Below, one piece after another: positions 20,194 to 32,833 of a DNA stretch of 64,000 bases (positions within the stretch are counted from its first letter, which is position 1; every line of letters starts with the position of its first letter). The DNA is from Paragemmobacter ruber. GTDB lineage: Bacteria; Pseudomonadota; Alphaproteobacteria; Rhodobacterales; Rhodobacteraceae. The notes under the pieces are model-generated. The model saw nothing but the letters and a program-made list of their open reading frames with translations, was not told the origin of the DNA and made no database searches. Where the stretch lies: positions 744,001-808,000 of the forward strand of contig NZ_JAAATW010000001.1 in NCBI RefSeq assembly GCF_009908315.1, written 5' to 3'. The translations under genes and the position numbers were made by a program.

Positions 20194-20607
20194 ATGGATG
20201 ATCTGGACCGCAGGCTGATCTCCGAACTCAGGATCAACAGCCGTGCTTCACTCCCTCGGTTGGCAGAGTTGCTCGGTGTGGCAAGAGGCACCGTGAAGGC
20301 ACGCCTCGACAAGCTTGTATCGTCCGGGACCATCCGCAGTTTCACGATCCGGGTCGGGGATGACTCTCCTGATATGCTTCGGGCCATCATGGTCATTGAA
20401 CTGATGGGAAAGAACATTCGTGCCACAGTATCGACGATCAAGCGCATCCCCGGCATCGTGACTGTGTCGAATACCAACGGCGTTTGGGATCTGGTGGCCG
20501 AAATCGAGACCGCCAACCTGACCGAGATGAACGGGATCATAAGCGAAGTCCGCAGCCTGAACGGAGTATCGAAATCCGAAACATTCATCTTGCTGGGTGC
20601 TGCTTGA
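20194..20607 (+). CDS. Lrp/AsnC-family transcriptional regulator
   Basis: 137 residues, slightly shorter than typical Lrp (about 150-165). The N-terminal winged helix is 'LDRRLISELRINSRASLPRL' followed by 'AELLGVARGTVKARLDKLVS'; the C-terminal RAM ligand-binding domain contains 'IKRIPGIVTVSNTNGVWDLV'. These proteins usually sense amino acids. Divergent orientation implies that it controls the RocB-type gene. A clear terminator follows. Confidence 0.9.
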   Translation: MDDLDRRLISELRINSRASLPRLAELLGVARGTVKARLDKLVSSGTIRSFTIRVGDDSPDMLRAIMVIELMGKNIRATVSTIKRIPGIVTVSNTNGVWDLVAEIETANLTEMNGIISEVRSLNGVSKSETFILLGAA

Positions 20608-20784: not shown

Positions 20785-21696
20785 TCAGGCATTTTCCGGG
20801 GCTCGCGCGGGCAAAAGCCACACGATCATCCCAAGGACCGATGTCAGGAGCAAGACGATGCCGAAGGTGGCACTTGCTGCAAAGCCTTCGGCCCCGGTCG
20901 CACCGGCGAGCGGGAAAAGCACCACCGCTGCCCCTTCGCGCAGTCCCCATCCACCGATCGTCAAGGGGATGAGCATGGTAAACAGAACAAGCGGCAGGAT
21001 CACCAGCATCGCCCCGGGCGAAAGGATCACCCCGACCGCAGCCGCGCAGGCCGCAAAGGCCAGCAGGTTGGCCGCGACCGTACCAAGGCTCAGCATCGCC
21101 TGCGCCCCCCGGACATCGCGCGCGAACAGCGCCTGCCAAGCAGCCCGCCGCCAGGCTTGAACGCGCGGCCAGCGCGGCCCCACACGCAACATCGCCCAGC
21201 CCGCGGCAACCAGCCCCACTGCCACCAGCCCAAGCATGGCCTGCATGGCCACCGGCAGATCAATCCCGCCCGGCCACAGACCCACGACCAGCGCGCCCAC
21301 CAGCGTGACCGCCACCAGCGCGGCCTGACCGGCCATCCGTTCGAACAAGACCGCCTGTCCAGCCCGTTCCAGCCCGACGGCGCCGCGCGCGCGCACCGCC
21401 CGCCCGGCATCCCCCACAACGCCCCCGGGCAGCGCGAGGTTCACCATCTGCGCCAGAAAATACTCACGCACCGCGTGCAGGAAGCCCATCTCCTGCCCCA
21501 GCCGTGCCGCCGTCAGCCGCCAGCGGATGGCCGACAGCAGGGTCTGCCCGATCAGCAGCGCCACCGCCACGGCAACCCAACCGGGGCGCACCCCTTGCAG
21601 CCGCGCGACCACATCCGCCCCATCGACAAGCCGCCAGACCAGCACGATCAAGACCGCTGCCAGCCCGATCCGCAGCGCGCGCGCCCAAGATGCCAT
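20785..21696 (-). CDS. UPF0104/LPG-synthase transmembrane-domain flippase-like protein
   Basis: 303 residues from the ATG at 21696 (a GTG immediately before it is also possible). About eight hydrophobic helices; the conserved cores are 'SAIRWRLTAARLGQEM', 'YFLAQMVNLALPGGVVGDAG' and 'LTIGGWGLREGAAVVLF'. This is the membrane module shared with MprF lysyl-phosphatidylglycerol flippases and archaeal/bacterial UPF0104 proteins, which are thought to move lipids across the inner membrane. It overlaps the stop of the upstream sulfatase-fold gene, so it is translationally coupled to it. Confidence 0.85.
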   Translation of the reverse strand: MASWARALRIGLAAVLIVLVWRLVDGADVVARLQGVRPGWVAVAVALLIGQTLLSAIRWRLTAARLGQEMGFLHAVREYFLAQMVNLALPGGVVGDAGRAVRARGAVGLERAGQAVLFERMAGQAALVAVTLVGALVVGLWPGGIDLPVAMQAMLGLVAVGLVAAGWAMLRVGPRWPRVQAWRRAAWQALFARDVRGAQAMLSLGTVAANLLAFAACAAAVGVILSPGAMLVILPLVLFTMLIPLTIGGWGLREGAAVVLFPLAGATGAEGFAASATFGIVLLLTSVLGMIVWLLPARAPENA

Positions 21697-23345
21697 CACG
21701 GTGCCACCCCGGTCGAAAAGCTGCGCACGAAAAGATCACGCATCGCTTCCATGGGCAGCGGCACCTGCGACGCGGGCGGGATCAGGCCGGGTGCGAAACC
21801 CCACTCCGCCGCACGTTCAACCAATGGCGCCGGACCGATCAGATGGATCGGCACATCGAACCGATCCTCCTGCGCGACAAAACCCGCCGCCTGATGATCG
21901 CCCACGATGACGATCAGCGGCATCTCTTCCGCCGTTCGCAAGGCATGACCGAAGACCGCTTCAAGCGAATAGCCAATCGCTTGCCTGTACTGATCGCGCA
22001 CCCGGTCACGATCGCGCCAGACCACATCCGGCGGATCACCCTGAACCGCCATGGTGTTGAACACGGTCCCATCACCGACAGCGTCCCAGTCAATCATCTG
22101 CGGCACCGGCACCCATGGCGCATGGGACGAGATCAGCACCACCTGCGCAAACAATCGCCCCGCCTGCCGCCCGGCGGACTTGCGCAGCAGCCGGTCAAAG
22201 GCCGCAAGCGTGTACTGATCCGGCATCGTCACCCAGTTGAACGGCAGCCCACGATAGCCAAGGTCCGCAGCCGCAAAGATCTGGTCAAAGCCCTTCTGCG
22301 CGCCTTCCGGCCAGTCCATCGTGATTGCCGGCATCACGGTCGCTGTCTCGAATCCCGACCGCTGCGCGATGTGGAACAGCCCTTCCCGACCGCTCAACAG
22401 CAGCGCCCGATAGCGCACCTGATCGTTGATGCGCAACCCGCTGGCAAAGGTCGCATGGGCAAGCCAGCTCTGCCCGCCGCGCGTCGATGAGGTCAGGTAA
22501 CCTGACCGCATGGCAAAGCCTTCTGCGGCAAGGGCGCGCGCAGCCGGTTCCAGCACATCCCTTGTGGTCGCAGCATAAAGCGGCCCCTCGATGCTGGCCC
22601 GGCCATAGCTTTCGATGAAGACAACGATCACGTCCCGGTCGATTTGGTCCAGCAGGCCGTCCACCCCGCGGAACGGGTCCGCCGCTGCGGCCACGCGGAA
22701 CCGTCGCATATCTTCGAGCGTGCGCAGAACCAACCGTACGCGCTCTGCCGCGACACGCGCCGTGAAGGCCGCCCCCGGAGGATCGACCGGCATCTGCCAA
22801 CGGTTCATGATCGCTGCCGCTTCATAGGTCGCTGCCGCCGCAACCGCGAGGGCCACCCCCGCCGCCATGCGCCGCACCCCGGGGCCGGCCTGAGACAGCG
22901 GCAGTCGCGCCCATACCCCCAACGCCCACCACAACGCGGCGGCCAGCGCCACCAGCGCCGCAGCCGCCGCCACGTAAACCAGAACCGCGCCAACCCGTCC
23001 CACAGACCCCGAGAGCAGGTTGTATCCCGCACCTGCCAGATTGATGTCGCCCACCGGGTTGAAGCCCCGGCCAAAGGCCGTGAACATCGCAAGGTCCGCG
23101 CCTTTCAGCAGCACGATCAAGACAAGCACCGCCACCAGAACGCCGCGCAGCCATCGCCCCAGCCGTCCGTCACCGATCAGGGGCAACCCCAGCAGCAGGA
23201 CCGGCAGTTCCAGCGGAAACAGCCCGAGCGCCCCCCATGTCATCGCGCCGGGATGGTTGGGCTGGATCAGGACAAGATACAGCAGGATCGCCGCCAGAAT
23301 GACGGTCATGACGGGCCGCATCGGCAGGCCTGCCCGGCGCATCAT
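21696..23345 (-). CDS. Membrane-anchored sulfatase-fold transferase (LtaS/EptA-like)
   Basis: 549 residues from the ATG overlapping the preceding stop (ATGA). About five membrane helices occupy the first 190 residues, then an extracytoplasmic alkaline-phosphatase/sulfatase domain. Metal-site elements are 'DVIVVFIESYGRASIEG', the nucleophile segment 'TSSTRGGQSWLAHATFASG' and 'IVIVGDHQAAGF'. There is no CxPxR formylglycine motif, so it is not a sulfate-ester hydrolase. The layout matches phosphoethanolamine or phosphoglycerol transferases, which move a phospholipid headgroup onto an acceptor. The acceptor is unknown. Middle gene of a three-gene lipid group. Confidence 0.8.
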   Translation of the reverse strand: MMRRAGLPMRPVMTVILAAILLYLVLIQPNHPGAMTWGALGLFPLELPVLLLGLPLIGDGRLGRWLRGVLVAVLVLIVLLKGADLAMFTAFGRGFNPVGDINLAGAGYNLLSGSVGRVGAVLVYVAAAAALVALAAALWWALGVWARLPLSQAGPGVRRMAAGVALAVAAAATYEAAAIMNRWQMPVDPPGAAFTARVAAERVRLVLRTLEDMRRFRVAAAADPFRGVDGLLDQIDRDVIVVFIESYGRASIEGPLYAATTRDVLEPAARALAAEGFAMRSGYLTSSTRGGQSWLAHATFASGLRINDQVRYRALLLSGREGLFHIAQRSGFETATVMPAITMDWPEGAQKGFDQIFAAADLGYRGLPFNWVTMPDQYTLAAFDRLLRKSAGRQAGRLFAQVVLISSHAPWVPVPQMIDWDAVGDGTVFNTMAVQGDPPDVVWRDRDRVRDQYRQAIGYSLEAVFGHALRTAEEMPLIVIVGDHQAAGFVAQEDRFDVPIHLIGPAPLVERAAEWGFAPGLIPPASQVPLPMEAMRDLFVRSFSTGVAP

Positions 23346-24061
23346 GCCCGATGCCTCCATAGCCAAAGCACGTCCCGCCCGAAAGACCAGACCAGCGCCC
23401 CCACCGCGCCCCAGGCCACCGCCCGCGCTGCCATGGGCGGTAGTTCGGGCACCTGCAGCACGATCAGGGCGCCGATCTGCACCACGCAAACAACCTTGCG
23501 GCCAAAGCGAACGGGCAAGGGCGCGGCCAGCCACGGGCAGGGCCAGAAGGCCGCGACAAAGGCATAGCGCATCGCCCCGAGCAAAAGCACTTCGGGGCCA
23601 GTCATGCCGCCCAGCCAGACATGGCCCGCCAGAACCAAGGCCAACGCCGCATCCGTTTCCATGTCGAACCGCGCCCCGAAATCCGAGGCAAGCCCGCTGC
23701 GCCGCGCAAACCAGCCATCCACCCCATCCAGCGACAGCGCCACAGCCGCAACGGCCAGCACGTCCCATCCCTGCGGGCCAGACCAGATCATCCCGAACAG
23801 CCCGGCCGTCATCGCCGCGCGCGCCTGCGTCACCGCATTGCACAGGCCAAAGCGCGGATGCGGGTAGTGCTGCGGCAACATCCGTAGGACGAAGGCCAGC
23901 ATCGCCAGCGTCCCTGCAAAAGACACCGCAACCGCCATCCAGCCGCCGTCGGGGCGCAGGATCATCGGCAGAAAGGCCAAGGCCACCGCCAGCGCGGCCG
24001 CCGGGCCCACACCTGCGGGCAAGCCATCCCTTGATCTGTCCTGATGCGCCTCTACTGTCAT
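23342..24061 (-). CDS. CDP-alcohol phosphatidyltransferase family membrane protein
   Basis: 239 residues. The complete family motif is present: D112-G-V-D115-G116-W-F-A119-R120, then G129-x3-D133-x3-D137. These residues bind CDP-diacylglycerol, CDP-ethanolamine or a similar donor and two metal ions. Six or so membrane helices surround it. The enzyme should join an alcohol to a phosphatidyl or CDP-linked headgroup in the inner membrane; which alcohol is unknown. It overlaps the sulfatase-fold gene by 4 bp and diverges from cytochrome b561. Confidence 0.88.
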   Translation of the reverse strand: MTVEAHQDRSRDGLPAGVGPAAALAVALAFLPMILRPDGGWMAVAVSFAGTLAMLAFVLRMLPQHYPHPRFGLCNAVTQARAAMTAGLFGMIWSGPQGWDVLAVAAVALSLDGVDGWFARRSGLASDFGARFDMETDAALALVLAGHVWLGGMTGPEVLLLGAMRYAFVAAFWPCPWLAAPLPVRFGRKVVCVVQIGALIVLQVPELPPMAARAVAWGAVGALVWSFGRDVLWLWRHRA

Positions 24062-24084
24062 GGCATCACAGGGAGATGCGTCAG

Positions 24085-24636
24085 ATGCGGGATTCGGCTT
24101 CCGGCTACAGCAACGGCCAACGCAGCCTGCACTGGATCATGGCGATCCTCATTTTTCCTATGCTCGTCGTCGGGTTCGTGATGGTGCAGCAGGGCCTCCC
24201 GCGTGCGGTGCAGAACAGCATGTTCGTCCTGCACAAGAATATCGGGGTGGTGGTGCTCATCCTTGCGGCCCTGCGCATCGCCCTGCGCCTGCGCCGCAGC
24301 CCGCCCCCCCTGTCGGCCAGCCTGCCCGCGTGGCAGCGGCGTGCCGTCCATGCCAGCCACGGGCTGCTCTATGTGCTGATCCTTGTCATGCCCCTGTCGG
24401 GTTACATCCGGGTGCGGGCGGGTGGCTTTCCGATCGAGGCGCTGGATCGCCTCGGCCTGCCGACGCTGGTGCCGCGATCCGATGCACTGGCCAATGCGGC
24501 GAAGTTGATCCACGAAGTCGGGGCTTATGCCATCGCCGCGCTTCTCGTGCTGCATATCGCGGCCGCCCTGCAGCACGCGCTCATCCTGCGGGATGGCACA
24601 TGGGCGCGGATCTGGCCGCCGGTGACGCGCCGCTGA
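24085..24636 (+). CDS. Cytochrome b561 family protein
   Basis: 183 residues from the ATG at 24085, which has GGGAG at the right distance; an ATG at 24076 directly abuts that site and is less likely. Four membrane helices carry the expected haem histidines: 'QRSLHWIMAI' (H16), 'FVLHKNIGVVVL', 'AVHASHGLLYVLILVMPLSG' and 'VLHIAAALQH'. Bacterial b561 proteins pass electrons between ubiquinol and periplasmic acceptors or superoxide. Divergent from the phosphatidyltransferase gene and convergent with the RibD-type gene, separating two minus-strand groups. Confidence 0.9.
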   Translation: MRDSASGYSNGQRSLHWIMAILIFPMLVVGFVMVQQGLPRAVQNSMFVLHKNIGVVVLILAALRIALRLRRSPPPLSASLPAWQRRAVHASHGLLYVLILVMPLSGYIRVRAGGFPIEALDRLGLPTLVPRSDALANAAKLIHEVGAYAIAALLVLHIAAALQHALILRDGTWARIWPPVTRR

Positions 24637-24649
24637 CATATCGCGCGCC

Positions 24650-25495
24650 TCAGCGCAGCCGAACGGCGCGCGCCGCTTCGGCCACCCGCGGCGCCGAATG
24701 GATCGGCTGCCACGCCTCCGCCGCCCGCGCCGTAAGGGCGCAATCAAACACGACCTCGCGCCCGATGCCATAGGCGCGGGTTTCCGGGCGGATTGCATCG
24801 GCCAGCCGCGCCACTGGGCTTTGCAACGTCAGGCCCTGCGGTCCGCCGCCAATCAGCAGGGGCGACACCGCCACCTGCAACCGGTTCAAGAGCCCCGCCT
24901 CCAGAAAGCGTGCGATGGTGATCCCGCCCCCCTCGATCATCACGTTCCGCAGGCCAAGGTCATGCAGAGCGGTCACGATATCGCGCGGGTCCAGCCAGCC
25001 GTCACGCAGGGGCAGATTGACCACCTCCACGCCCTCAGGGCGGGGGCGCGCGACGCCCTGCACCACGATCCGCCGGGCCCCATCGGCGCGAAACAGGGCC
25101 ACATCTTCGGTCAGCCGTCCACGCGGATCCACCACGATGCGCGCCGGGTTCGGCCCGCTGCACATCCGCACCGTCAGTTGCGGGCGATCATGAATGGCCG
25201 TCCGCACCCCGATCAGCACGCCATCGACAAGCGCCCGCATCCGGTGCAGATGCGCCAATCCTTCCGGCCCCGATACATCGCGCGCATCGCCCGTCACCGT
25301 GGCCACCCGCCCGTCCAGCGACTGGCCGATCTGCGCCACCGTCACCGGCCCCAGATCCCGCCGGGCCAGCGGGGCATAAAGATCCAGCGCCGCGCGTTCG
25401 CCCGGGGTCCAGCGTCCACAGCAGGCGCAGCCATTCCCTGCCCGGATCGACAGGATCCGTTCCCAGACCCTCGGCGTGACTTCCACGTTCTGCAT
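24650..25495 (-). CDS. RibD C-terminal-type (dihydrofolate-reductase-fold) reductase
   Basis: 281 residues from the ATG at 25495. Residues from about 50 form the NADPH-dependent reductase fold of RibD: 'PVTVAQIGQSLDGRVATVTG', 'LVDGVLIGVRTAIHDRPQL', 'PARIVVDPRGRLTEDVALF' and 'NVMIEGGGITIARFLEAGL'. The deaminase half of RibD is absent; instead about 45 residues with a CACC motif precede it. Known relatives reduce the ribosyl chain of 2,5-diamino-6-ribosylamino-pyrimidinone phosphate. Last gene of a five-gene operon with GTP cyclohydrolase II and a PTPS-like protein; 2 bp separate it from the methyltransferase. Confidence 0.85.
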   Translation of the reverse strand: MQNVEVTPRVWERILSIRAGNGCACCGRWTPGERAALDLYAPLARRDLGPVTVAQIGQSLDGRVATVTGDARDVSGPEGLAHLHRMRALVDGVLIGVRTAIHDRPQLTVRMCSGPNPARIVVDPRGRLTEDVALFRADGARRIVVQGVARPRPEGVEVVNLPLRDGWLDPRDIVTALHDLGLRNVMIEGGGITIARFLEAGLLNRLQVAVSPLLIGGGPQGLTLQSPVARLADAIRPETRAYGIGREVVFDCALTARAAEAWQPIHSAPRVAEAARAVRLR

Positions 25496-25497
25496 CG

Positions 25498-26265
25498 TCA
25501 GCCCCTCCGTTCCGAAACCGTCTGTGGCACCGCCAGCAGGTCGCGATGCCCGATCCGGCACAGCCCCTGCCCCACCCACGCCTGCCGTGCCGCACGCCAG
25601 GCCGACGCATCCCCCGCAAAGCCCGCCTCTTGGGCGGCCTGCGCGATGCCTGCCAGCAATTCGTCCTGCAACGCGGCCCGATCGGGGCCGAGCTGCCACG
25701 GGCTGTCGCCCTCGCGCACGGCATAGCCCGCGGCCTGCAAGCGTTCCGCCAGATACTGCGTTGCCCCCGGCCCCAAAGCCGGGCCAAAGCCTTTGTCACC
25801 CACCTGATGGCGGTTGAAGGCTGCGGTGATCTGCCCATCCTCGGGCAGTTCGGGCGTCCAGTCCATGCGGCCGTCATAATTCAGCGCGGCATAGAGGGGC
25901 AGGTTCAGCCGCGTCAGCCGGTCCACCAGCCGGTCCACCCAAGGGGCCGATGCCAGATCAAACAGGGCCGAAGCCGTCACCAGCGTTGCCCCGTCCAACG
26001 GCAGCGCGTCCACATCGTTGAGATCGAGGCGATGCGCCTCTCCGCCCGCAAGGCGCAGCAGCGCGGCATCGCCGTCCACCATGCGCCAGACCGCACCGCC
26101 CAGCCGCGCACCAAAGGCGCGGCGCGTGGACCCCGTGCCGCAGCCCAGATCGACCACCACCGGGCGCGCCCCTGCGACCCGCGCCGCCGCCTCCAGCAGC
26201 GCGTCATCCCGCGCCGCGTGGTCGGCGGGTTCACGCAGGGCAAGCCAGTCGGCGGAAAAGCCCAT
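25498..26265 (-). CDS. Class I SAM-dependent methyltransferase
   Basis: 255 residues. Motif I is 'PVVVDLGCGTGSTRRAFGAR' and an acidic post-I segment 'WRMVDGDAALLRLAGGEA' follows; 'TLVTASALFDLASAPWVDRL' occupies the motif IV region. The C-terminal half is alpha-helical and unlike well-known families, so the methyl acceptor cannot be named. Its place between the PTPS-like and RibD-like genes (gaps of 3 and 2 bp) suggests that it methylates a pterin or pyrimidine intermediate. Confidence 0.82.
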   Translation of the reverse strand: MGFSADWLALREPADHAARDDALLEAAARVAGARPVVVDLGCGTGSTRRAFGARLGGAVWRMVDGDAALLRLAGGEAHRLDLNDVDALPLDGATLVTASALFDLASAPWVDRLVDRLTRLNLPLYAALNYDGRMDWTPELPEDGQITAAFNRHQVGDKGFGPALGPGATQYLAERLQAAGYAVREGDSPWQLGPDRAALQDELLAGIAQAAQEAGFAGDASAWRAARQAWVGQGLCRIGHRDLLAVPQTVSERRG

Positions 26266-26268
26266 GGC

Positions 26269-26664
26269 TCAGATGTCCCCTTCGCACCAGGCGCGGGCCA
26301 TGTGGCTTTCGTGCAGGGTGATGCGCAGCCGCTTTACCCGACCCCCATCCTTCAACGCCCCGGCGCGCAGCCGTTCGGCCATGCCCTTGTGGATCACACC
26401 GCAGAGGAACTCGGTCGTGGTGAACTTGCCTTTGAATTCCGGCACTTCATCCAAATTGCGATAGCGCAGCGGTTCCAGCACCGCCGCCAAAGCCTCCACC
26501 GCCAGCCCGATATCCACGACCAGACCGTGGTCATCTATGGTCTCTGCGAAGAACGCCGCGTCAACGGTGAAGGTCGCGCCGTGCATCCCCTGCGCCGGGC
26601 CGAACACCGGCGAGGGCAGCGAATGGGCGATCATGATGTGGTCACGGACTTCTACAGCGAACAT
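26269..26664 (-). CDS. Divergent 6-pyruvoyl-tetrahydropterin synthase / QueD family protein
   Basis: 131 residues from the ATG at 26664, behind AAGGAAAG. The T-fold is recognisable: 'MFAVEVRDHIMIAHSLP', 'GMHGATFTVDAAFF', 'GLVVDIGLAVEALAAVLEPL', 'TTTEFLCGVIHKGMAERL' and 'LRITLHESHMARAWC'. Two of three expected zinc histidines are present (H14, H28), but the third, in the usual HGH, is alanine (A30). The catalytic cysteine four residues before HGH is also alanine (A24). It therefore cannot use the standard PTPS or QueD mechanism unchanged. In the operon between a dehydrogenase and a methyltransferase. Confidence 0.85.
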   Translation of the reverse strand: MFAVEVRDHIMIAHSLPSPVFGPAQGMHGATFTVDAAFFAETIDDHGLVVDIGLAVEALAAVLEPLRYRNLDEVPEFKGKFTTTEFLCGVIHKGMAERLRAGALKDGGRVKRLRITLHESHMARAWCEGDI

Positions 26665-26678
26665 CTGGCTTTCCTTGT

Positions 26679-27623
26679 TCAATAACGGATGCGGTGGCAC
26701 AGCGTGCCCGGCGCGGTAAGCACCGCGCCATAAGTGTGGGGCAGGTCGTCAAAGGCGCTTTCCCCGGAAATCAGCGCGTCCACTGCCGGATCCCGCAGCA
26801 GGTTCAGCGCCTTTTCCAGCCGCCGCCGATAGGTCCAGCGCGGCGCACGAGCCGGCGGGACCTGCCCCACCTGCGAACTGATCAGGCGCAGCCGCCGGCT
26901 GTGGAATGCCCCGCCCAGTGGCACCGGCGTCTCCCCGCTGCCATGCCAGCTTGCCTCGACCACCGTCGCCTCCGGCCCCGCGCAGCCCAGAGCCGTGGCC
27001 AGACCCGCCGCGCTTGCGCTGGCATGGATCACCACGTCACAATCCTTGGGCGCGTCCTCCGGTGCGGCAAAGCTGCACCCAAGCGCCCCCGCCAGCGTGC
27101 CACGCCCGGCCACAGGATCGACCAGCACCACCTCGGCCCCCGGAAGCCTTGCGCAAAGATAGGCCACAAGCGCCCCCACCACCCCGGCACCGATCACGGC
27201 GATACGGTCCCCGGCACCGGCGCGGCTGTCCCACAGGATGTTCAGCGCGGTCTCCATATTGGCTGCAAGCACCGCCCTCGGCCCCGGAACATCGTCCGGC
27301 ACGGGGATCAGCGCCGCCTCTGGCAGACGAAAGGCGGTCTGATGCGGAAACAGCGCAAAGACGGTTCGCCCCGCAAGCGCGCCCTCTGCTGCCTCGCCCA
27401 CCATTGCATATCCGTATTTCACCGGGAACGGGAACGCCCCATCCTGAAACGGCGCGCGCATCCGCGCCCATTCGGCCTCGGGCACCCGCCCCTCGGACAC
27501 CAAGCGCTCTGTCCCGCGGCTGATGCCAGACCAGCGCGCCTGCACCAGGACGCCCTCGCCCAGTGCAGTATCGCGGATCTCGGCCCGGCCCGGGGCAGTG
27601 CACCAGAGCGCCCGGGCAATCAT
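26679..27623 (-). CDS. Zinc-ligand-free MDR dehydrogenase, BchC-like
   Basis: 314 residues. The Rossmann motif is 'IAVIGAGVVGALVAYLCARL', with 'VVLVDPVAGR' closing the NAD(P) site. The N-terminal 'RWSGISRGTERLVSEGRVP' replaces the zinc-binding CGICHTD of classical alcohol dehydrogenases; the same GIS-x-GTE pattern is typical of the 3-hydroxyethyl-bacteriochlorophyllide dehydrogenase (BchC) subfamily. No photosynthesis genes are nearby, so it is unlikely to be BchC itself. Probably oxidises or reduces a side-chain hydroxyl of the operon's product. It overlaps the ribA stop by 4 bp. Confidence 0.83.
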   Translation of the reverse strand: MIARALWCTAPGRAEIRDTALGEGVLVQARWSGISRGTERLVSEGRVPEAEWARMRAPFQDGAFPFPVKYGYAMVGEAAEGALAGRTVFALFPHQTAFRLPEAALIPVPDDVPGPRAVLAANMETALNILWDSRAGAGDRIAVIGAGVVGALVAYLCARLPGAEVVLVDPVAGRGTLAGALGCSFAAPEDAPKDCDVVIHASASAAGLATALGCAGPEATVVEASWHGSGETPVPLGGAFHSRRLRLISSQVGQVPPARAPRWTYRRRLEKALNLLRDPAVDALISGESAFDDLPHTYGAVLTAPGTLCHRIRY

Positions 27624-28762
27624 GGCAGAAGATGCCCGGATTTCCGCGCCTTGGTCGCCAGATACCCGGCATTCTGCGCTGTCCGACCCACGACCAACGG
27701 CACCCGCTCCACCACATGAAGCCCATGCGCATCCAGCATGGCAACCTTGGCCGGGTTGTTGGTCATCAGCCGCACCTTGCCGATCCCCAGCCGCGACAGT
27801 AGCGCTGCGCCAATGCGGAAATCCCGCTCGTCATCCTCAAAGCCGAGGTGATGGTTGGCTTCCACCGTATCAAGACCGCGCTCCTGCAGGGCATAGGCGC
27901 GCATCTTGTTGGCCAAGCCGATCCCCCGCCCCTCCTGATTGAGGTAGAGCAGGACGCCACCGCCCGCTTCGGCCATCGCAGCCATGGCCGCCTGCAACTG
28001 CGGGCCGCAATCGCATTTCAGACTGCCCAGAACATCGCCGGTGAAACAGGCCGAATGAAGCCGGACAAGCACCGGCGCATCGCGCCGGACCGTCCCCACC
28101 TCGATGGCGTAATGCTCCTGCCCGCCATCCTCAGGGCGGAAGACATGCACCCTGCCCGCGGCGGATACCGCCATGGGCAGAGCGGCCGCACTGACCGGCA
28201 GATGCGGCGACAGAAGCGCGGTTTCGGCCTGCACCTCTTCCACGGTCAACACCGTAAGCCCCTGATCCAGCGCAACCGTCTTGGCATCCGCCATCGGCAC
28301 GCAGAAAAGCGCGGGCAACAGTTGCGCCGCCTTCACCAGGGCGATGCCCGCAGCCTGTACGGCGCCACCTTCCTTCATTGCCAGCGCCCGGGGTGCCGCC
28401 ATGCCCGCCTCACGCAGCGGATCGGCCAGTTGCAGCACCTGTGCATGGGACAGCCCGCGCGCCGACAGCCGTACCGTGGCGGCCCCGCCGGCCTCCAGCC
28501 CCAGTGCCGTCGCCCGCGCCCCGGTCAGCACAAGTTCGGCGCCGCCCGTCTGCAAGGCGGCGCGGTGGCGCGCTTCGGACAGACCTTCCACCGCCAGAAC
28601 CAGAACCCCAGGCGCCGTCGATCCCTGACCCGGGCCCTGCAGAACCACGGGCAGGCCAAGGCGCAGATCACAGCGCGCTCGCATCAGCCTTTCGCTGCGA
28701 GAGGGGGCGAAAACCTGGGAAACAAAGGTTTCTACGTCTAGCACACGGCTCGTTACAGTCAT
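27620..28762 (-). CDS. ribA: GTP cyclohydrolase II with degenerate N-terminal domain
   Basis: 380 residues from the ATG at 28762. The C-terminal half is an intact GTP cyclohydrolase II: zinc cysteines C239, C250 and C252 in 'LHSACFTGDVLGSLKCDCG', the 'LNQEGRGIGLANKMRAYALQ' loop, 'DERDF' and 'LMTNNPAKV'. It opens GTP to 2,5-diamino-6-ribosylamino-pyrimidinone phosphate and formate. The N-terminal about 180 residues sit where RibB lies in RibBA fusions but lack its acidic catalytic motif; a similar degenerate domain is common in Rhodobacteraceae RibA. It heads the five-gene operon. It could be the cell's riboflavin enzyme or a second copy for the operon's product. Confidence 0.9.
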   Translation of the reverse strand: MTVTSRVLDVETFVSQVFAPSRSERLMRARCDLRLGLPVVLQGPGQGSTAPGVLVLAVEGLSEARHRAALQTGGAELVLTGARATALGLEAGGAATVRLSARGLSHAQVLQLADPLREAGMAAPRALAMKEGGAVQAAGIALVKAAQLLPALFCVPMADAKTVALDQGLTVLTVEEVQAETALLSPHLPVSAAALPMAVSAAGRVHVFRPEDGGQEHYAIEVGTVRRDAPVLVRLHSACFTGDVLGSLKCDCGPQLQAAMAAMAEAGGGVLLYLNQEGRGIGLANKMRAYALQERGLDTVEANHHLGFEDDERDFRIGAALLSRLGIGKVRLMTNNPAKVAMLDAHGLHVVERVPLVVGRTAQNAGYLATKARKSGHLLP

Positions 28763-28958
28763 GGCGATCCCGGTCAATATGGCCCACGTTACTTAGTGTT
28801 GCGACTCACGGGGCAAGAGGGATGACACAATTTCGATGCCCAGATCACGTTTCCGTTGGGCTGCGCATCACCTTGAAACTCCGGCTCGACAGAACCGTAA
28901 GTCAGCGCATTTGCAGCGCTGGCGTACTGGGTTTGGGACAGGAAAAGGGCGGTTAGAG

Positions 28959-29699
28959 ATGGGCATGCGCAACTGGCTGGGTCTCGCGCGATCGCTGGCG
29001 ATCTATAACAATCCGCTGCGCACCCTGCCTCTGCGGCGGTTCTATCGCAGCCTGCTGTCACCCGGCGATCTGGCCTTCGACATCGGCGCCCATGTCGGCA
29101 CGCGCGCCCGCGCGATGCGCGGTGCCGGGGCGCGGGTGGTCGCACTGGAACCGCAGGAACCCTTCGCCAGCTTCCTGCGCCGCACCCTGCCCCGCGACAT
29201 CCACCTGATCGAGGCTGCCGCCGGCCCGCAGGAAACCGTGGCCGAGATGGCGGTCTCCTCGCTCCATCCCACCGTCTCCTCGCTGCAGCCGGATTTCGCC
29301 GCCACCGCCGGGGCCACGCCCGGCTTTGCCCATGTGAAATGGGACCGTCGCCAGCAGGTTCGCGTCACCACACTCGACCGTCTGATCGCCGAACATGGGA
29401 TGCCCGCCTACGTGAAGATTGATGTCGAGGGGTTTGAACTCGACGTGCTTGCCGGCGTGTCGCGGCCGCTCCCGCTGGTATCGGTGGAATATCTGCCTGA
29501 TCTGCCCGATCAGACCGTCCGCGTGATCGAAAGGCTGCAAAGCCTTGGCGCTTACCGCTTCAACCCGGTGCAGGGCGAGGCGGGGCGCTTCCTGTGGTCC
29601 GACTGGCGCAAGGCGACCGACACGGTCGCCTGGCTGCGCGCCCTGCCGCCGGGCAGCCGATCCGGCGATCTCTATGCCCGGCTGCAATCGGCGAAATAA
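28959..29699 (+). CDS. FkbM-family SAM-dependent methyltransferase
   Basis: 246 residues from the ATG at 28959. 'LAFDIGAHVGTRARAMRGAG' is motif I and 'VVALEPQEPFASFLRR' follows; the family hallmark 'YVKIDVEGFELDVLAGVS' is present near residue 155. FkbM enzymes O-methylate sugars or small metabolites. Divergent from the ribA operon across a 196-bp gap. Its last 28 bp overlap the end of the convergent AarF-type gene. Confidence 0.88.
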   Translation: MGMRNWLGLARSLAIYNNPLRTLPLRRFYRSLLSPGDLAFDIGAHVGTRARAMRGAGARVVALEPQEPFASFLRRTLPRDIHLIEAAAGPQETVAEMAVSSLHPTVSSLQPDFAATAGATPGFAHVKWDRRQQVRVTTLDRLIAEHGMPAYVKIDVEGFELDVLAGVSRPLPLVSVEYLPDLPDQTVRVIERLQSLGAYRFNPVQGEAGRFLWSDWRKATDTVAWLRALPPGSRSGDLYARLQSAK

Positions 29700-31000
29700 G
29701 GGCCCATCACCGCGTCCAGATCGACCCGCGCTCGCAACCGTGAAGCCAGCAGATAGAGCCCGCCGAATTTGCGATGCAGGAACAGCACCTCGGGCGGTGG
29801 CACGTGCCACAGATCGGGGTCCATGCCCAAGGCCATCGCCCGATCACGCAACTCCATGACCAGATCGCGCTGCCCGAAATCAAAGATGCCGCCCTTCCGC
29901 AACGGCCCAAAGGCCAGCTCGGCAAGCTCCAGCACCGCCCGTCTGTGGCCATCGGTCAGGCCATCTGGCAGATAGCCCATCTCCACCATGGCGCGCAGCA
30001 TCGCCTCCGGCTCGCCCGCGATCCCGGTCTGCACCACCGCGCGCAGGCGCGGCGCCAGCCCCGGCGAAAAGCTGCGCGCTGCGCCAAAATCCAGAAGCAC
30101 GATCCGGCCCGTTTCTGCCTGCCAGCGAAAATTGGCAAAGTTCGGGTCGGTCTGCATCAGGTTGAAAACGAACACCTCTTCCAGAACCAGCCCGATAAGC
30201 CGCGCCGCCACCCGATCGCGCAGGGACTGTTCGGCGTTCTCGAGGCTCTCAATCGGCTGGCTGTCTAGGTAATCCATCGCCAGCACGTCGTCGCCCGACA
30301 GATCGTTCTGCGGCACCGGCACCACGAACCCCGGACGTCCGTCCAACAGCGCCCCGAATCGCCGCATCTGCGCCGCCTCGCGCCGGTAATCCGCCTCTTC
30401 GTGCAGCTGCCGCTTCGCCTCGGCCAGAAGCGGCCCCACGTCCAGCCGCCCCGGTACCAAGCCCGACAGCCGCAGCAGCGCCGCCACATTATCCACGTCA
30501 CTGTCGATGCTGGCCCTTACGCCCGGATATTGCACCTTGATCGCCAGATCGCGCCCGTCCTTCGTCTGCGCCCGATGCACCTGCCCGATCGACGCCGAGG
30601 CGACGGGCCGCACGTCAAATCGTCGAAACCGCGACAGCCAGCCCACGCCCCAGGCCCGATCGAGGACCCGCCGCAACTGCACCGGTGGCATCGGCTCGGC
30701 ATCCGCGCGCAACCGGGCAAGGATGGCCGACAGTTCGGACGGCAGCATCTCGCCCGCATCCATTGACAGAAGCTGCCCCACCTTCATCGCGGCCCCGCGC
30801 AGCTGCGCCAGCTGATCCGTCACCCGCCGCGCATTTGCAGGCGTCAGGATCAGGTCACCCAGCCGTGGCCGTTCCCCTTGGGCCAGCCGCAGCGCGCCTT
30901 CGGCAAGTACCCGGCCACCGATCCCCGTGGCCAACCCGCCCAGCGCCATCATCCGCCGCACCCGCCCGGCAGGCACCGCCTTGCCCTCGCGCTCATCCAT
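29672..31000 (-). CDS. ABC1/AarF/UbiB-family atypical kinase
   Basis: 442 residues from the ATG at 31000. The family-specific 'QLRGAAMKVGQLLSMDAGE' (KxGQ) is near residue 75, the A-rich nucleotide loop is 'ASASIGQVHRA', the kinase lysine is in 'LAIKVQYPGV', and 'TDPNFANFRWQ' with 'IVLLDFGAAR' are the catalytic and metal loops. These ATPases support ubiquinone synthesis (UbiB) or lipid and isoprenoid extraction. Because ubiB usually lies with ubiE, this is more likely a second family member. It overlaps the IMPase gene by 8 bp. Confidence 0.9.
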   Translation of the reverse strand: MDEREGKAVPAGRVRRMMALGGLATGIGGRVLAEGALRLAQGERPRLGDLILTPANARRVTDQLAQLRGAAMKVGQLLSMDAGEMLPSELSAILARLRADAEPMPPVQLRRVLDRAWGVGWLSRFRRFDVRPVASASIGQVHRAQTKDGRDLAIKVQYPGVRASIDSDVDNVAALLRLSGLVPGRLDVGPLLAEAKRQLHEEADYRREAAQMRRFGALLDGRPGFVVPVPQNDLSGDDVLAMDYLDSQPIESLENAEQSLRDRVAARLIGLVLEEVFVFNLMQTDPNFANFRWQAETGRIVLLDFGAARSFSPGLAPRLRAVVQTGIAGEPEAMLRAMVEMGYLPDGLTDGHRRAVLELAELAFGPLRKGGIFDFGQRDLVMELRDRAMALGMDPDLWHVPPPEVLFLHRKFGGLYLLASRLRARVDLDAVMGPYFADCSRA

Positions 31001-31775
31001 CGCGCAGCACTCCGGCAAAGGTATCGAACAGCGCAGGCACTGCCGCCACCACGGTTCCCGTCGCCCAAGGATCCTCGTCCGGCGTCCAGCCTTCGACCTG
31101 TACCCCTGCGGCCGCCATCAGCGCCAGCCCGGCCCCGATATCCCAAAGCTGCAACCGCCGTTCCCAGAACCCGTCCAGCCGCCCCGCCGCGACATAGGCA
31201 AGGTCCAGCGCAGCCGCCCCCATCCGCCGCACGCCTGCGCAATGCGGCATAAGTCGCGCGATGTCTGCGGCATGGGCGGCGATATGGGCCATACCGCCGA
31301 AGGGGATGCCGGTGCCGAACAGCGCCTCGCGCATCGCATCCGTCCCGGCGGGTCCGACCGTGCGACCGTTCAATGTGATCCCCCCGCCGGGGGCGGTGGC
31401 AAAGGTCTCGCCCCTCAGCGGATCGTGGACAACGCCCAGAACTGGCCGCCCCGCCACCTCCAGCCCGATGGACACGCACCAATGCGGCAGCCCGCGCAGA
31501 AAATTCGTCGTCCCGTCCAGCGGATCGACGACCCATCGTCGGCCGCCCGCCGCTGCCCCCGTCTCTTCGCCCAGCCAGCCATCCCCGGGCCACCCGCCCA
31601 GCAGCCGGGCGCGCAGATGCGCCTCGGCGGCAACATCGGCTTCGGACACGAAATCCCCGGCCCGTTTTGAGGTCACCGTCAACCGCTCACGCGCCCTGTA
31701 GTGCGCCAGGAGGATCTCGCCCGCCTCTTCCGCCGCGGCCACCGCTGCCGCAAGTTCCTGCTGAAGATTGGTCAT
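30993..31775 (-). CDS. Inositol monophosphatase-family phosphatase
   Basis: 260 residues. The Mg2+ and Li+ site is complete: the glutamate in 'GDGWLGEETG', 'WVVDPLDGTTNFLRGLPHW' and 'LQLWDIGAGLALMAAAGVQ'. The family hydrolyses inositol phosphates, fructose 1,6-bisphosphate or 3'-phosphoadenosine phosphates in the cytoplasm; the sequence does not separate these. Overlapped on both sides by the GT4 and AarF-type genes, so one transcript is likely. Confidence 0.9.
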   Translation of the reverse strand: MTNLQQELAAAVAAAEEAGEILLAHYRARERLTVTSKRAGDFVSEADVAAEAHLRARLLGGWPGDGWLGEETGAAAGGRRWVVDPLDGTTNFLRGLPHWCVSIGLEVAGRPVLGVVHDPLRGETFATAPGGGITLNGRTVGPAGTDAMREALFGTGIPFGGMAHIAAHAADIARLMPHCAGVRRMGAAALDLAYVAAGRLDGFWERRLQLWDIGAGLALMAAAGVQVEGWTPDEDPWATGTVVAAVPALFDTFAGVLRDG

Positions 31776-32833
31776 GCCGCCATCTCAGGCTTTCGCAGAA
31801 CTGCCACCGCGCGTCGCGCAACATCGTCCCAGCCGGGCAGCGCCTCCCCGGCGCGCCGCGCCGCCGCCGCCATCGTGGCGCGACGGGCTTCGTCCGACAG
31901 CAAGGACCGCAGCGCCCCGGCAAAAGCGCCCGCATCATCCGCCGCGACCAGCAGACCTGCCCCGCGCGGCACGGTATCGGGCACCGCGCCCGTCCGGCAG
32001 CTGACGATGGGCAGGCCCTGCGCCAAGGCTTCGGCGAAGACGATCCCATATCCTTCATATCGGGTGGCCAGCGCGAAGACCGACGCCCTCGCATAAAGCT
32101 GATCCCGCTCCGCCATACCGATCCCTTGGGCCAAGCGCACCCTTTCGGTCAGGCCCCACTCGGCGATCTGCCGCTCCAGTTGCGCGACATAGCCTGCATC
32201 CCATGGCGTCCCCGCGATCACGGCCTGCCAATTCAGGTCAGGAAGACGCGCCAGCGCGTCGATCAGCACGTCATGCCCCTTGCGCGGATGCAGCAAGCCG
32301 ACGGACAGGATCAGAGGAGGGGTCGCCTTCTCCTGCACCGCGACAGTCACCCGGTCGAGCCCCGGCACAAGGACGGTGATCTTTTCCTCCGGCACGCGAT
32401 ACTCGGCCACCAGCACCGCCTTGGTATGCGGGCTTGGCACGATCACATGCCGGGCCAGCGCAAGGTTGTCCGCCTCTCTGCGCCGCAGGGCCGTCGCAAC
32501 ACTGGCCTCCAGTGCTGTCTCCAGCGCAAGGGGATGGTGCACCAGCGCAACGATCGGTGCCGCGATCCGCGCCACCGCGTCCGTAGGCAGCGCCCCGAAT
32601 GCGAGGCCGTCTATGATGACAGGCGTATCGGCAGGCAGGTCCTGCAATTGTGCCACGGCAGTTTGCATGGCCCCTTCATCCGGCTGCGGAAAGCCTTCGG
32701 GCAACGTCACCACGGTGATGCCATGCCCCAGCGCCATCAGGCTTTCCACCAGCCTGCGATCATAGAACGATCCGCCCGTCTGCGTGGTCAACGCGCCGGG
32801 GACGGCGAAGGCGGCGAAAGGTTTCGAAGGCAT
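31772..32833 (-). CDS. Family 4 (GT-B) glycosyltransferase
   Basis: 353 residues. The C-terminal domain shows the GT4 donor-site features 'ILSVGLLHPRKGHDVLIDAL' and 'TRYEGYGIVFAEALAQGLPI' (the E-x7-E motif), with 'HHPLALETALEASVATALRR' before them in the acceptor half. It transfers a sugar from a nucleotide donor to an unidentified lipid or small-molecule acceptor. First gene of a three-gene unit with the IMPase and AarF-type kinase, all overlapping. Confidence 0.9.
   Translation of the reverse strand: MPSKPFAAFAVPGALTTQTGGSFYDRRLVESLMALGHGITVVTLPEGFPQPDEGAMQTAVAQLQDLPADTPVIIDGLAFGALPTDAVARIAAPIVALVHHPLALETALEASVATALRRREADNLALARHVIVPSPHTKAVLVAEYRVPEEKITVLVPGLDRVTVAVQEKATPPLILSVGLLHPRKGHDVLIDALARLPDLNWQAVIAGTPWDAGYVAQLERQIAEWGLTERVRLAQGIGMAERDQLYARASVFALATRYEGYGIVFAEALAQGLPIVSCRTGAVPDTVPRGAGLLVAADDAGAFAGALRSLLSDEARRATMAAAARRAGEALPGWDDVARRAVAVLRKPEMAA

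Follow-up and report, generated by a model that had tools for sequence, protein, structure and literature searches.

Which compound is made by a compact row of genes in Paragemmobacter ruber that sets a GTP-opening enzyme beside a PTPS-fold protein? The window analysed here is a 64,000-nucleotide stretch of contig NZ_JAAATW010000001.1 (assembly GCF_009908315.1, positions 744,001 to 808,000), and all window coordinates count from its first letter. An initial annotation had described five adjoining genes at 24650..28762 as an operon leading from GTP to an undescribed methylated pterin- or pyrimidine-type product. A check of the open reading frames (ORFs) bears out this arrangement: all five frames are open on the minus strand, and in the 5' to 3' direction the GTP cyclohydrolase II (GCH II) and dehydrogenase genes overlap by 4 bp, followed by gaps of 14 bp to the PTPS gene, 3 bp to the methyltransferase gene and 5 bp to the RibD-type gene. 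The families named were likewise recovered. GCH II (27620..28762; PF00925, 207.5 bits), the PTPS protein (26269..26664; PF01242, 74.3 bits) and the RibD-type protein (24650..25492; PF01872, 120.2 bits) score above cut-off, and the class I S-adenosylmethionine (SAM) methyltransferase (25498..26265; PF13649, 22.6 bits, cut-off 27) and the dehydrogenase (26679..27623; PF00107, 21.8 bits, cut-off 31.8), both below cut-off, are backed by alignments showing 103 and 102 conserved homologues, respectively. On balance, we think it probable that the locus is a form of a widespread PTPS-IV (SCO6650-type) cluster making a 2-amino-4-oxo-pyrimidine or pterin-like compound that is glycosylated, methylated and linked to the membrane.

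The PTPS protein, an orthologue of SCO6650, for which a structure has been solved (3d7j), is the only PF01242 match in its own genome. It carries FGPAQ at residues 21-25; F, G and Q are kept in all 74 homologues, P and A in 73. This is the signature published for PTPS-IV, a subfamily of COG0720 (AGeNNT cluster-node 62, 561 sequences) with PF00925 and PF01872 among its neighbours (PMC5445326), and both families stand beside the window gene. H14, H28 and E119 are present in 74 of 74 homologues, A24 in 73 and Y68 in 68, and the zinc-binding His is replaced by Ala at position 30 throughout. None of the other subfamilies fits. The CxxxHGH motif of QueD (PTPS-I) is absent in all 74, with Ala (73) or Gly (1) at position 24 and Ala at position 30, and the QueD model TIGR03367 gives the window protein 30.4 bits against a cut-off of 89.25. 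The CxxxxxHGH motif of PTPS-II (biopterin) is missing as well (position 22 Gly and position 30 Ala in 74/74), and of its catalytic Asp/His pair His68 occurs in none and Asp67 in two, as is the ExxHGH motif of PTPS-III (folate; position 25 Gln and position 30 Ala in 74/74). In nine of ten plasmid records (L017-L026), the PTPS-IV protein is nevertheless annotated as 6-carboxytetrahydropterin synthase, and seven records add a queuosine Gene Ontology term, despite the missing QueD motif.

The search for PTPS homologues covered a plasmid collection (20 records), 149 genomes of the family, of which 13 gave a match, and 398 of the phylum, of which 27 did so at E <= 1e-20 (the last two counts include the own genome), as well as a species-level GTDB contig collection, in which at least 581 of 594 candidate stretches were confirmed and the best 80 used. 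The resulting 114 loci were labelled with hidden Markov models (HMMs) built from the cluster families; flanks were too short in 27 of them, leaving 87 with at least 8 kb on either side of the PTPS gene (the window, 55 contigs from the GTDB collection, 18 further genomes and 13 plasmids). Partner families were counted within about 9 kb of the PTPS homologue with models trained on part of the same loci, so that members are favoured. The dehydrogenase was found in 83 loci, the methyltransferase in 79, a GT4 glycosyltransferase in 75, the RibD type in 61 and GCH II in 35, and dehydrogenase, PTPS, methyltransferase and GT4 occur jointly in 70. Membrane and redox families follow with 39 loci for the CDP-alcohol transferase, 34 for cytochrome b561, 31 for MdoH, 30 for the flippase-like protein and 28 for the sulfatase-fold protein, then FkbM (31), the inositol-monophosphatase-family (IMP) phosphatase (12), PfkB (9), creatininase (8) and ABC1 (2). 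In 78 of the 87 loci the dehydrogenase gene immediately precedes PTPS on the same strand, and the gene that immediately follows PTPS is GT4 in 64 and the methyltransferase in 20. As a control, the same models were run on 20 loci of 20 kb each around housekeeping GCH II or RibBA genes of 20 cluster-bearing genomes; they found GCH II in 18, GT4 in one and the remaining 14 families in none. An assembly of neighbours by chance is thus not what was found, with 83 and 79 of 87 loci holding the dehydrogenase and methyltransferase against none of the 20 controls. Whether the five families of the initial annotation co-occur in order has a divided answer: all five are present together in 30 loci, but the exact order of the window is found in five, the window among them. 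Clustering of the unlabelled neighbours at 91 loci revealed no further constant family among the 22 largest clusters inspected, the largest of which (35 loci) looks like ABC-transporter ATPases, with the next at 10 loci or fewer. Overall, the cluster is real, recurrent and widely distributed, yet patchy.

The window GCH II keeps the zinc-binding Cys motif and the Tyr of the RAY motif and exceeds the cut-off of TIGR00505 (227.3 vs 205.85 bits). Its genome holds two further PF00925 genes. One encodes a complete GCH II of 368 amino acids with the Cys motif elsewhere in the genome (L002); the other (L003, C1:292644-293057) belongs to a RibBA-like protein of 452 amino acids with a GCH II domain that has lost this motif, so that L002 and the window gene are the sole PF00925 matches of the genome with the zinc Cys motif. 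The window gene is therefore not the only ribA of its genome. The two proteins are 72.4% identical over about 200 columns of the aligned C-terminal part, and in a tree of 45 GCH sequences they fall into one 11-member clade of Rhodobacter relatives (support 100/99), separate from the cluster GCHs of rhizobia, Xanthomonas and Streptomyces; the window enzyme thus appears as a paralogue of housekeeping RibA. Cluster GCHs occur in Alphaproteobacteria, one Burkholderiaceae metagenome-assembled genome (MAG), one Xanthomonas strain and Streptomyces plasmids, and their distribution over several host-linked groups and over these hosts speaks for repeated functional recruitment. Although part of the five-gene operon of the initial annotation, GCH II proved optional: it is present in 35 of 87 loci, and the cluster lacks it in a genome of the same genus (G104) and in two close relatives (L027, L028). 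An optional GCH II fits an enzyme that boosts flux into a pool which housekeeping RibA can supply too.

The RibD-type protein resembles reductases only. Its best matches in the PDB are 6p8c, named a reductase for 2,5-diamino-6-ribosylamino-4(3H)-pyrimidinone 5'-phosphate, and 2azn, named for 5-amino-6-(5-phosphoribosylamino)uracil, and a motif search within the open frame found the deaminase signature in none of 78 homologues. It remains below the cut-offs of both the bifunctional RibD model (TIGR00326, 85.2 vs 156.35 bits) and the archaeal reductase model (TIGR01508, 92.5 vs 186.45 bits). Due to the missing deaminase signature the pyrimidine probably keeps its 2-amino group, which would agree with the Glu kept in the binding pocket of the PTPS protein; for the same reason the likeness to ToxE of toxoflavin synthesis, drawn in the initial annotation, is weak. 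Two more RibD_C proteins are encoded in the genome, one short and one in an open frame of 377 amino acids that, by length and RibD_C match, fits a normal RibD. The second GCH II, the other RibD_C protein and the missing motifs of PTPS-I, -II and -III all support the earlier view of a pathway distinct from those to riboflavin, folate and queuosine.

The remaining enzymes may modify the compound. An AlphaFold2 model of the methyltransferase (predicted local distance difference test, pLDDT, 97.8) matches SAM methyltransferases in the PDB, and as the fold is generic it indicates no substrate. The dehydrogenase is a zinc-less, medium-chain, BchC-like protein; identity with BchC itself was rejected (TIGR01202, 37.2 bits vs a cut-off of 291.25). 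Beyond position 28762 lie two further enzymes on the minus strand, the IMP-family phosphatase (30993..31775; PF00459, 182.8 bits) and the GT4 glycosyltransferase (31772..32833; PF00534, 110.4 bits). The nearest solved relatives of the latter are 7qsg, named D-inositol 3-phosphate glycosyltransferase, tied with 6kih (Tll1590). The phosphatase gene is on the strand of the PTPS gene in 13 of 13 copies, and a phosphatase annotated IMP has been reported to dephosphorylate a related ribitylaminopyrimidinedione phosphate non-specifically (PMC12051542). The genes proposed as a five-gene operon were thus correctly recognised, but the unit is larger, and GT4, one of its most constant partners, falls outside 24650..28762.

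At the other end of the cluster is a membrane module. Its genes, all on the minus strand, encode a CDP-alcohol phosphatidyltransferase (23342..24061; PF01066, 45.7 bits), a sulfatase-fold membrane protein (21696..23345, query to 23390, with an inferred ATG start at 23345; PF00884, 27.7 bits, cut-off 25) and a flippase-like LPG_synthase_TM protein (20785..21699; PF03706, 116.3 bits), the last with a 4 bp overlap with the sulfatase gene. These three genes travel together, and all 30 loci with the flippase-like gene also hold the CDP-alcohol transferase. The transferase residues D-G-x2-A-R...G..D...D are conserved in 43 homologues, with the motif intact. The models of PgsA and of inositol-phosphate lipid synthases give its homologue at L026 weak scores, none of which reaches the cut-off. 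The sulfatase-fold protein, which we take to be LTA-synthase/MdoB-like, has no NCBIfam match, and neither it nor the CDP-alcohol transferase has a sequence match in the PDB at E 0.01. One or more of the CDP-alcohol transferase, flippase-like, sulfatase-fold and MdoH proteins are encoded at 67 of the 87 loci. CDP-alcohol transferase or MdoH is found in 66 (35 the former only, 27 the latter only, four both), and neither in 21.

From these families we propose the following route, in which every reaction, their order and the product are predictions and steps four, five and seven are the least certain. GCH II would open GTP to 2,5-diamino-6-ribosylamino-4(3H)-pyrimidinone 5'-phosphate, topping up the housekeeping RibA pool. 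Archaeal ArfC and fungal Rib7 reduce the ribosyl chain of this type of compound to ribityl; the deaminase-free RibD type may do likewise, with the 2-amino group staying in place, and the IMP-family phosphatase would then take off the phosphate. In a fourth step, PTPS-IV might grip the 2-amino-4-oxo edge via the invariant Glu119 for a zinc-independent ring closure, an isomerisation or a hand-over. The zinc-less dehydrogenase could oxidise a side-chain alcohol as the fifth step, before glycosylation by GT4 and methylation by the methyltransferase. Finally, the membrane module (here the CDP-alcohol transferase with the flippase-like and sulfatase-fold proteins, at other loci MdoH) may anchor or export the compound, and cytochrome b561 may feed electrons to it. 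Glycosylation of a pterin has a precedent in Chlorobium (PMC5683033). The initial proposal of a GTP-derived, methylated product appears likely in outline; its extent was drawn too narrowly, and it has precedents. A more specific version of the route, which we put forward tentatively and regard as rather unlikely, is that many bacteria make a redox-active or light-absorbing pterin lipid, with a glycosylated, methylated pterin or diaminopyrimidine head group built by PTPS-IV, joined to lipid by the CDP-alcohol transferase (in other lineages, to a glycan made by MdoH), flipped outward and in redox contact with the quinone pool through cytochrome b561. It draws on the weak leads from the CDP-alcohol transferase and GT4 together with gene co-occurrence.

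Several observations weigh against the proposed route. Of the 87 loci, 52 lack GCH II and 26 lack the RibD type, so that the steps opening GTP are not always encoded at the locus; the IMP phosphatase is present in just 12. The model built for cluster GCHs does not separate the window enzyme (414) from housekeeping L002 (422). The split between CDP-alcohol transferase and MdoH tracks lineages, and its significance (Fisher p 6.1e-6) is uncorrected for relatedness. Three Streptomyces plasmids (L023, L025, L155) hold a lone PTPS-IV gene with no labelled partner. The creatininase genes speak partly for the route and partly against it. In favour, the RAY-motif Tyr is kept in 44 of 46 cluster GCHs and replaced by Met in two from Streptomyces (L021, L153), whose loci both hold a creatininase-family gene; this position is reported for SCO6655 to set a deformylated or a formylated product, with Met stopping at the formylated one. 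A formamidase first annotated as creatininase deformylates that product in Sinorhizobium and Brucella (PMC9478397). A strict pairing of creatininase with Met-type GCH II nevertheless fails in the proteobacterial L058, L134 and L138, which combine creatininase with a Tyr-type enzyme, and the Tyr/Met rule therefore does not cover all creatininase genes. The L021 creatininase is closer to the mycofactocin protein MftE than to ArfB, with both matches below cut-off. In addition, the sample over-represents genomes closely related to the query (from the GTDB collection, the 80 best of at least 581 hits; 27 of 114 loci dropped), and the open-licence papers searched give no metabolite or enzyme activity for the cluster and no account of it as a whole.

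The alternatives differ mainly in which of the families they put at the centre. The cluster might modify a true pterin from GTP cyclohydrolase I (dihydroneopterin made by FolE2) into a glycosylated methyl-tetrahydropterin, with GCH II as an accessory and the RibD type, of dihydrofolate reductase (DHFR) fold, as an accessory dihydropterin reductase. The PTPS fold retains the pterin-anchoring Glu, the own genome has FolE2 (a search of it for FolE1 gave no match), GCH II is so often absent, and PMC5683033 reports a pteridine glycosyltransferase in Chlorobium. We nonetheless consider this unlikely, as it is GCH II that was recruited in several lineages, the RibD type matches riboflavin-pathway reductases with no DHFR among the matches listed, and the annotations of the ten plasmid loci, the only ones searched for it, list no gene for GTP cyclohydrolase I. 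Two of the five genes are of riboflavin-pathway families, and an auxiliary flavin system, with extra RibA and RibD-type activity for riboflavin or for a glycosylated or lipid-linked flavin, could be imagined; the absence of the deaminase signature from 78 of 78 RibD-type proteins, the greater constancy of dehydrogenase, PTPS, methyltransferase and GT4 over GCH II and RibD, and the lack of any annotated lumazine or riboflavin synthase in the ten plasmid loci searched make it improbable. An ordinary extra riboflavin operon was rejected on the missing deaminase signature and the glycosyl- and methyltransferase core.

Membrane genes are common enough to suggest a cell-envelope lipid or glycan cluster with riboflavin-type passengers, yet dehydrogenase, PTPS and methyltransferase are each more constant than any membrane gene and the control loci were negative, and we find this quite improbable. 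Very unlikely, in our view, is the toxoflavin- or azapteridine-like secreted metabolite suggested by the initial annotation. GCH II, a RibD-like protein and a methyltransferase do stand together here, as in the tox operon of Burkholderia; but the RibD type carries no deaminase signature, the loci are dominated by a dehydrogenase, a PTPS and a glycosyltransferase, and genes for membrane lipids are frequent. At the level of gene families, the PTPS, glycosyltransferase and membrane module of the window cluster are further differences from the tox operon. The database names favour a queuosine or other 7-deazapurine pathway with PTPS acting as QueD; against it, besides the missing motif and low QueD score, no queC, queE or queF is annotated among neighbours in the ten plasmid loci, and we hold it to be highly improbable. 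Synthesis of F420 (a deazaflavin) would share the ribitylaminopyrimidine precursor, and a role of PTPS-IV in F420 is named as unpublished in PMC5041015. CofD (TIGR01819), however, was found in one of 36 PTPS-IV genomes, in a copy with an in-frame TAG, and in none of 14 comparison genomes, and a search of the own genome gave no match; F420 synthesis is thereby largely refuted for these genomes and extremely unlikely.

Several described systems share features with the cluster, and some of its parts are already on record. Among the closest is the Streptomyces cluster of the SCO6650-SCO6655 type (3d7j; SCO6655 is its GCH II); the window has a SCO6650 orthologue with GT4, methyltransferase and GCH II partners. 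The Streptomyces type differs in a Met-type GCH (Tyr in the window) with creatininase nearby, which the window cluster lacks, and the window adds an IMP phosphatase, FkbM and cytochrome b561. PMC5445326 shares with the window the FGPAQ signature and the PF00925 and PF01872 neighbours, but takes PF00925 as GTP cyclohydrolase I/FolE2, unlike the GCH II reading here, and its passages on PTPS-IV mention no dehydrogenase, GT4, methyltransferase or lipid genes and give no function. The cluster is thus not entirely new: PTPS-IV beside PF00925 and PF01872 is published there, and the SCO6650 structure is solved. The archaeal and fungal riboflavin branch (ArfB, ArfC/Rib7) shares the reductase without deaminase and, at the Streptomyces loci, a creatininase-family gene; among the annotated genes of the ten plasmid loci there is neither a lumazine synthase nor a riboflavin synthase, and the product would here be diverted. 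The pteridine glycosides of Chlorobium (CtPGT) and cyanobacteria (cyanopterin) provide a sugar-bearing pterin and a glycosyltransferase gene, but the Chlorobium enzyme acts on tetrahydrobiopterin, and the passages of PMC5683033 concerned mention no cluster of GCH II, RibD and PTPS-IV.

If the proposed route is true, a hitherto unrecognised GTP/pterin branch would be common to Streptomyces, a Xanthomonas strain, rhizobia and phototrophic Rhodobacter relatives. A PTPS-IV relative is encoded in at least 581 stretches of one species-level genome collection, and the key gene of the cluster is mostly labelled as an enzyme of queuosine synthesis. With four enzymes in 70 of 87 loci, the core is small enough for a direct test. 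Phototrophy as a linked trait was set aside: within the family, PufL/M genes are present in 9 of the 13 genomes with the cluster and in 52 of the 136 without it (Fisher p 0.039, with no correction for kinship), and many cluster-bearing rhizobia are not known to be phototrophs. In genome G083 (contig C42, about 103-116 kb), some 11 kb separate the PTPS-IV gene from the pufL/M reaction-centre genes.

The cluster partners together occupy 20785-32833, and an HMM scan of the 64 kb found none of the partner families outside this interval. Two plus-strand genes complete them, a prokaryotic cytochrome b561 (24076..24636, query from 24070; PF01292, 102.8 bits), convergent with the RibD-type gene, and an FkbM-family methyltransferase of uncertain start (28836..29699, query from 28878; PF05050, 56.5 bits). 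Window and Palleronia locus L017 agree in the order GT4, IMP phosphatase, FkbM, GCH II, dehydrogenase, PTPS, methyltransferase and RibD type. An ABC1 kinase gene (29672-31018) between the IMP phosphatase and FkbM genes of the window is absent from L017; the family, found in just two of the 87 loci, was not counted as part of the cluster. Just outside the cluster, a small plus-strand ORF (20194-20607) resembles Lrp/AsnC regulators by eye, and an Lrp/AsnC-type gene is also near the L017 cluster. The lone PTPS-IV genes of the three Streptomyces plasmids have a partly recurring setting of cupin, metallo-beta-lactamase (MBL)-fold, sigma-70 and BTAD regulator genes, with YbaB and discoidin-domain genes in two of the three. 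Locus L040, from an actinobacterial MAG named Aquiluna sp., encodes a PTPS 69% identical to the window protein in a gene order like that of Rhodobacter relatives, which may be explained by a binning error or a recent transfer.

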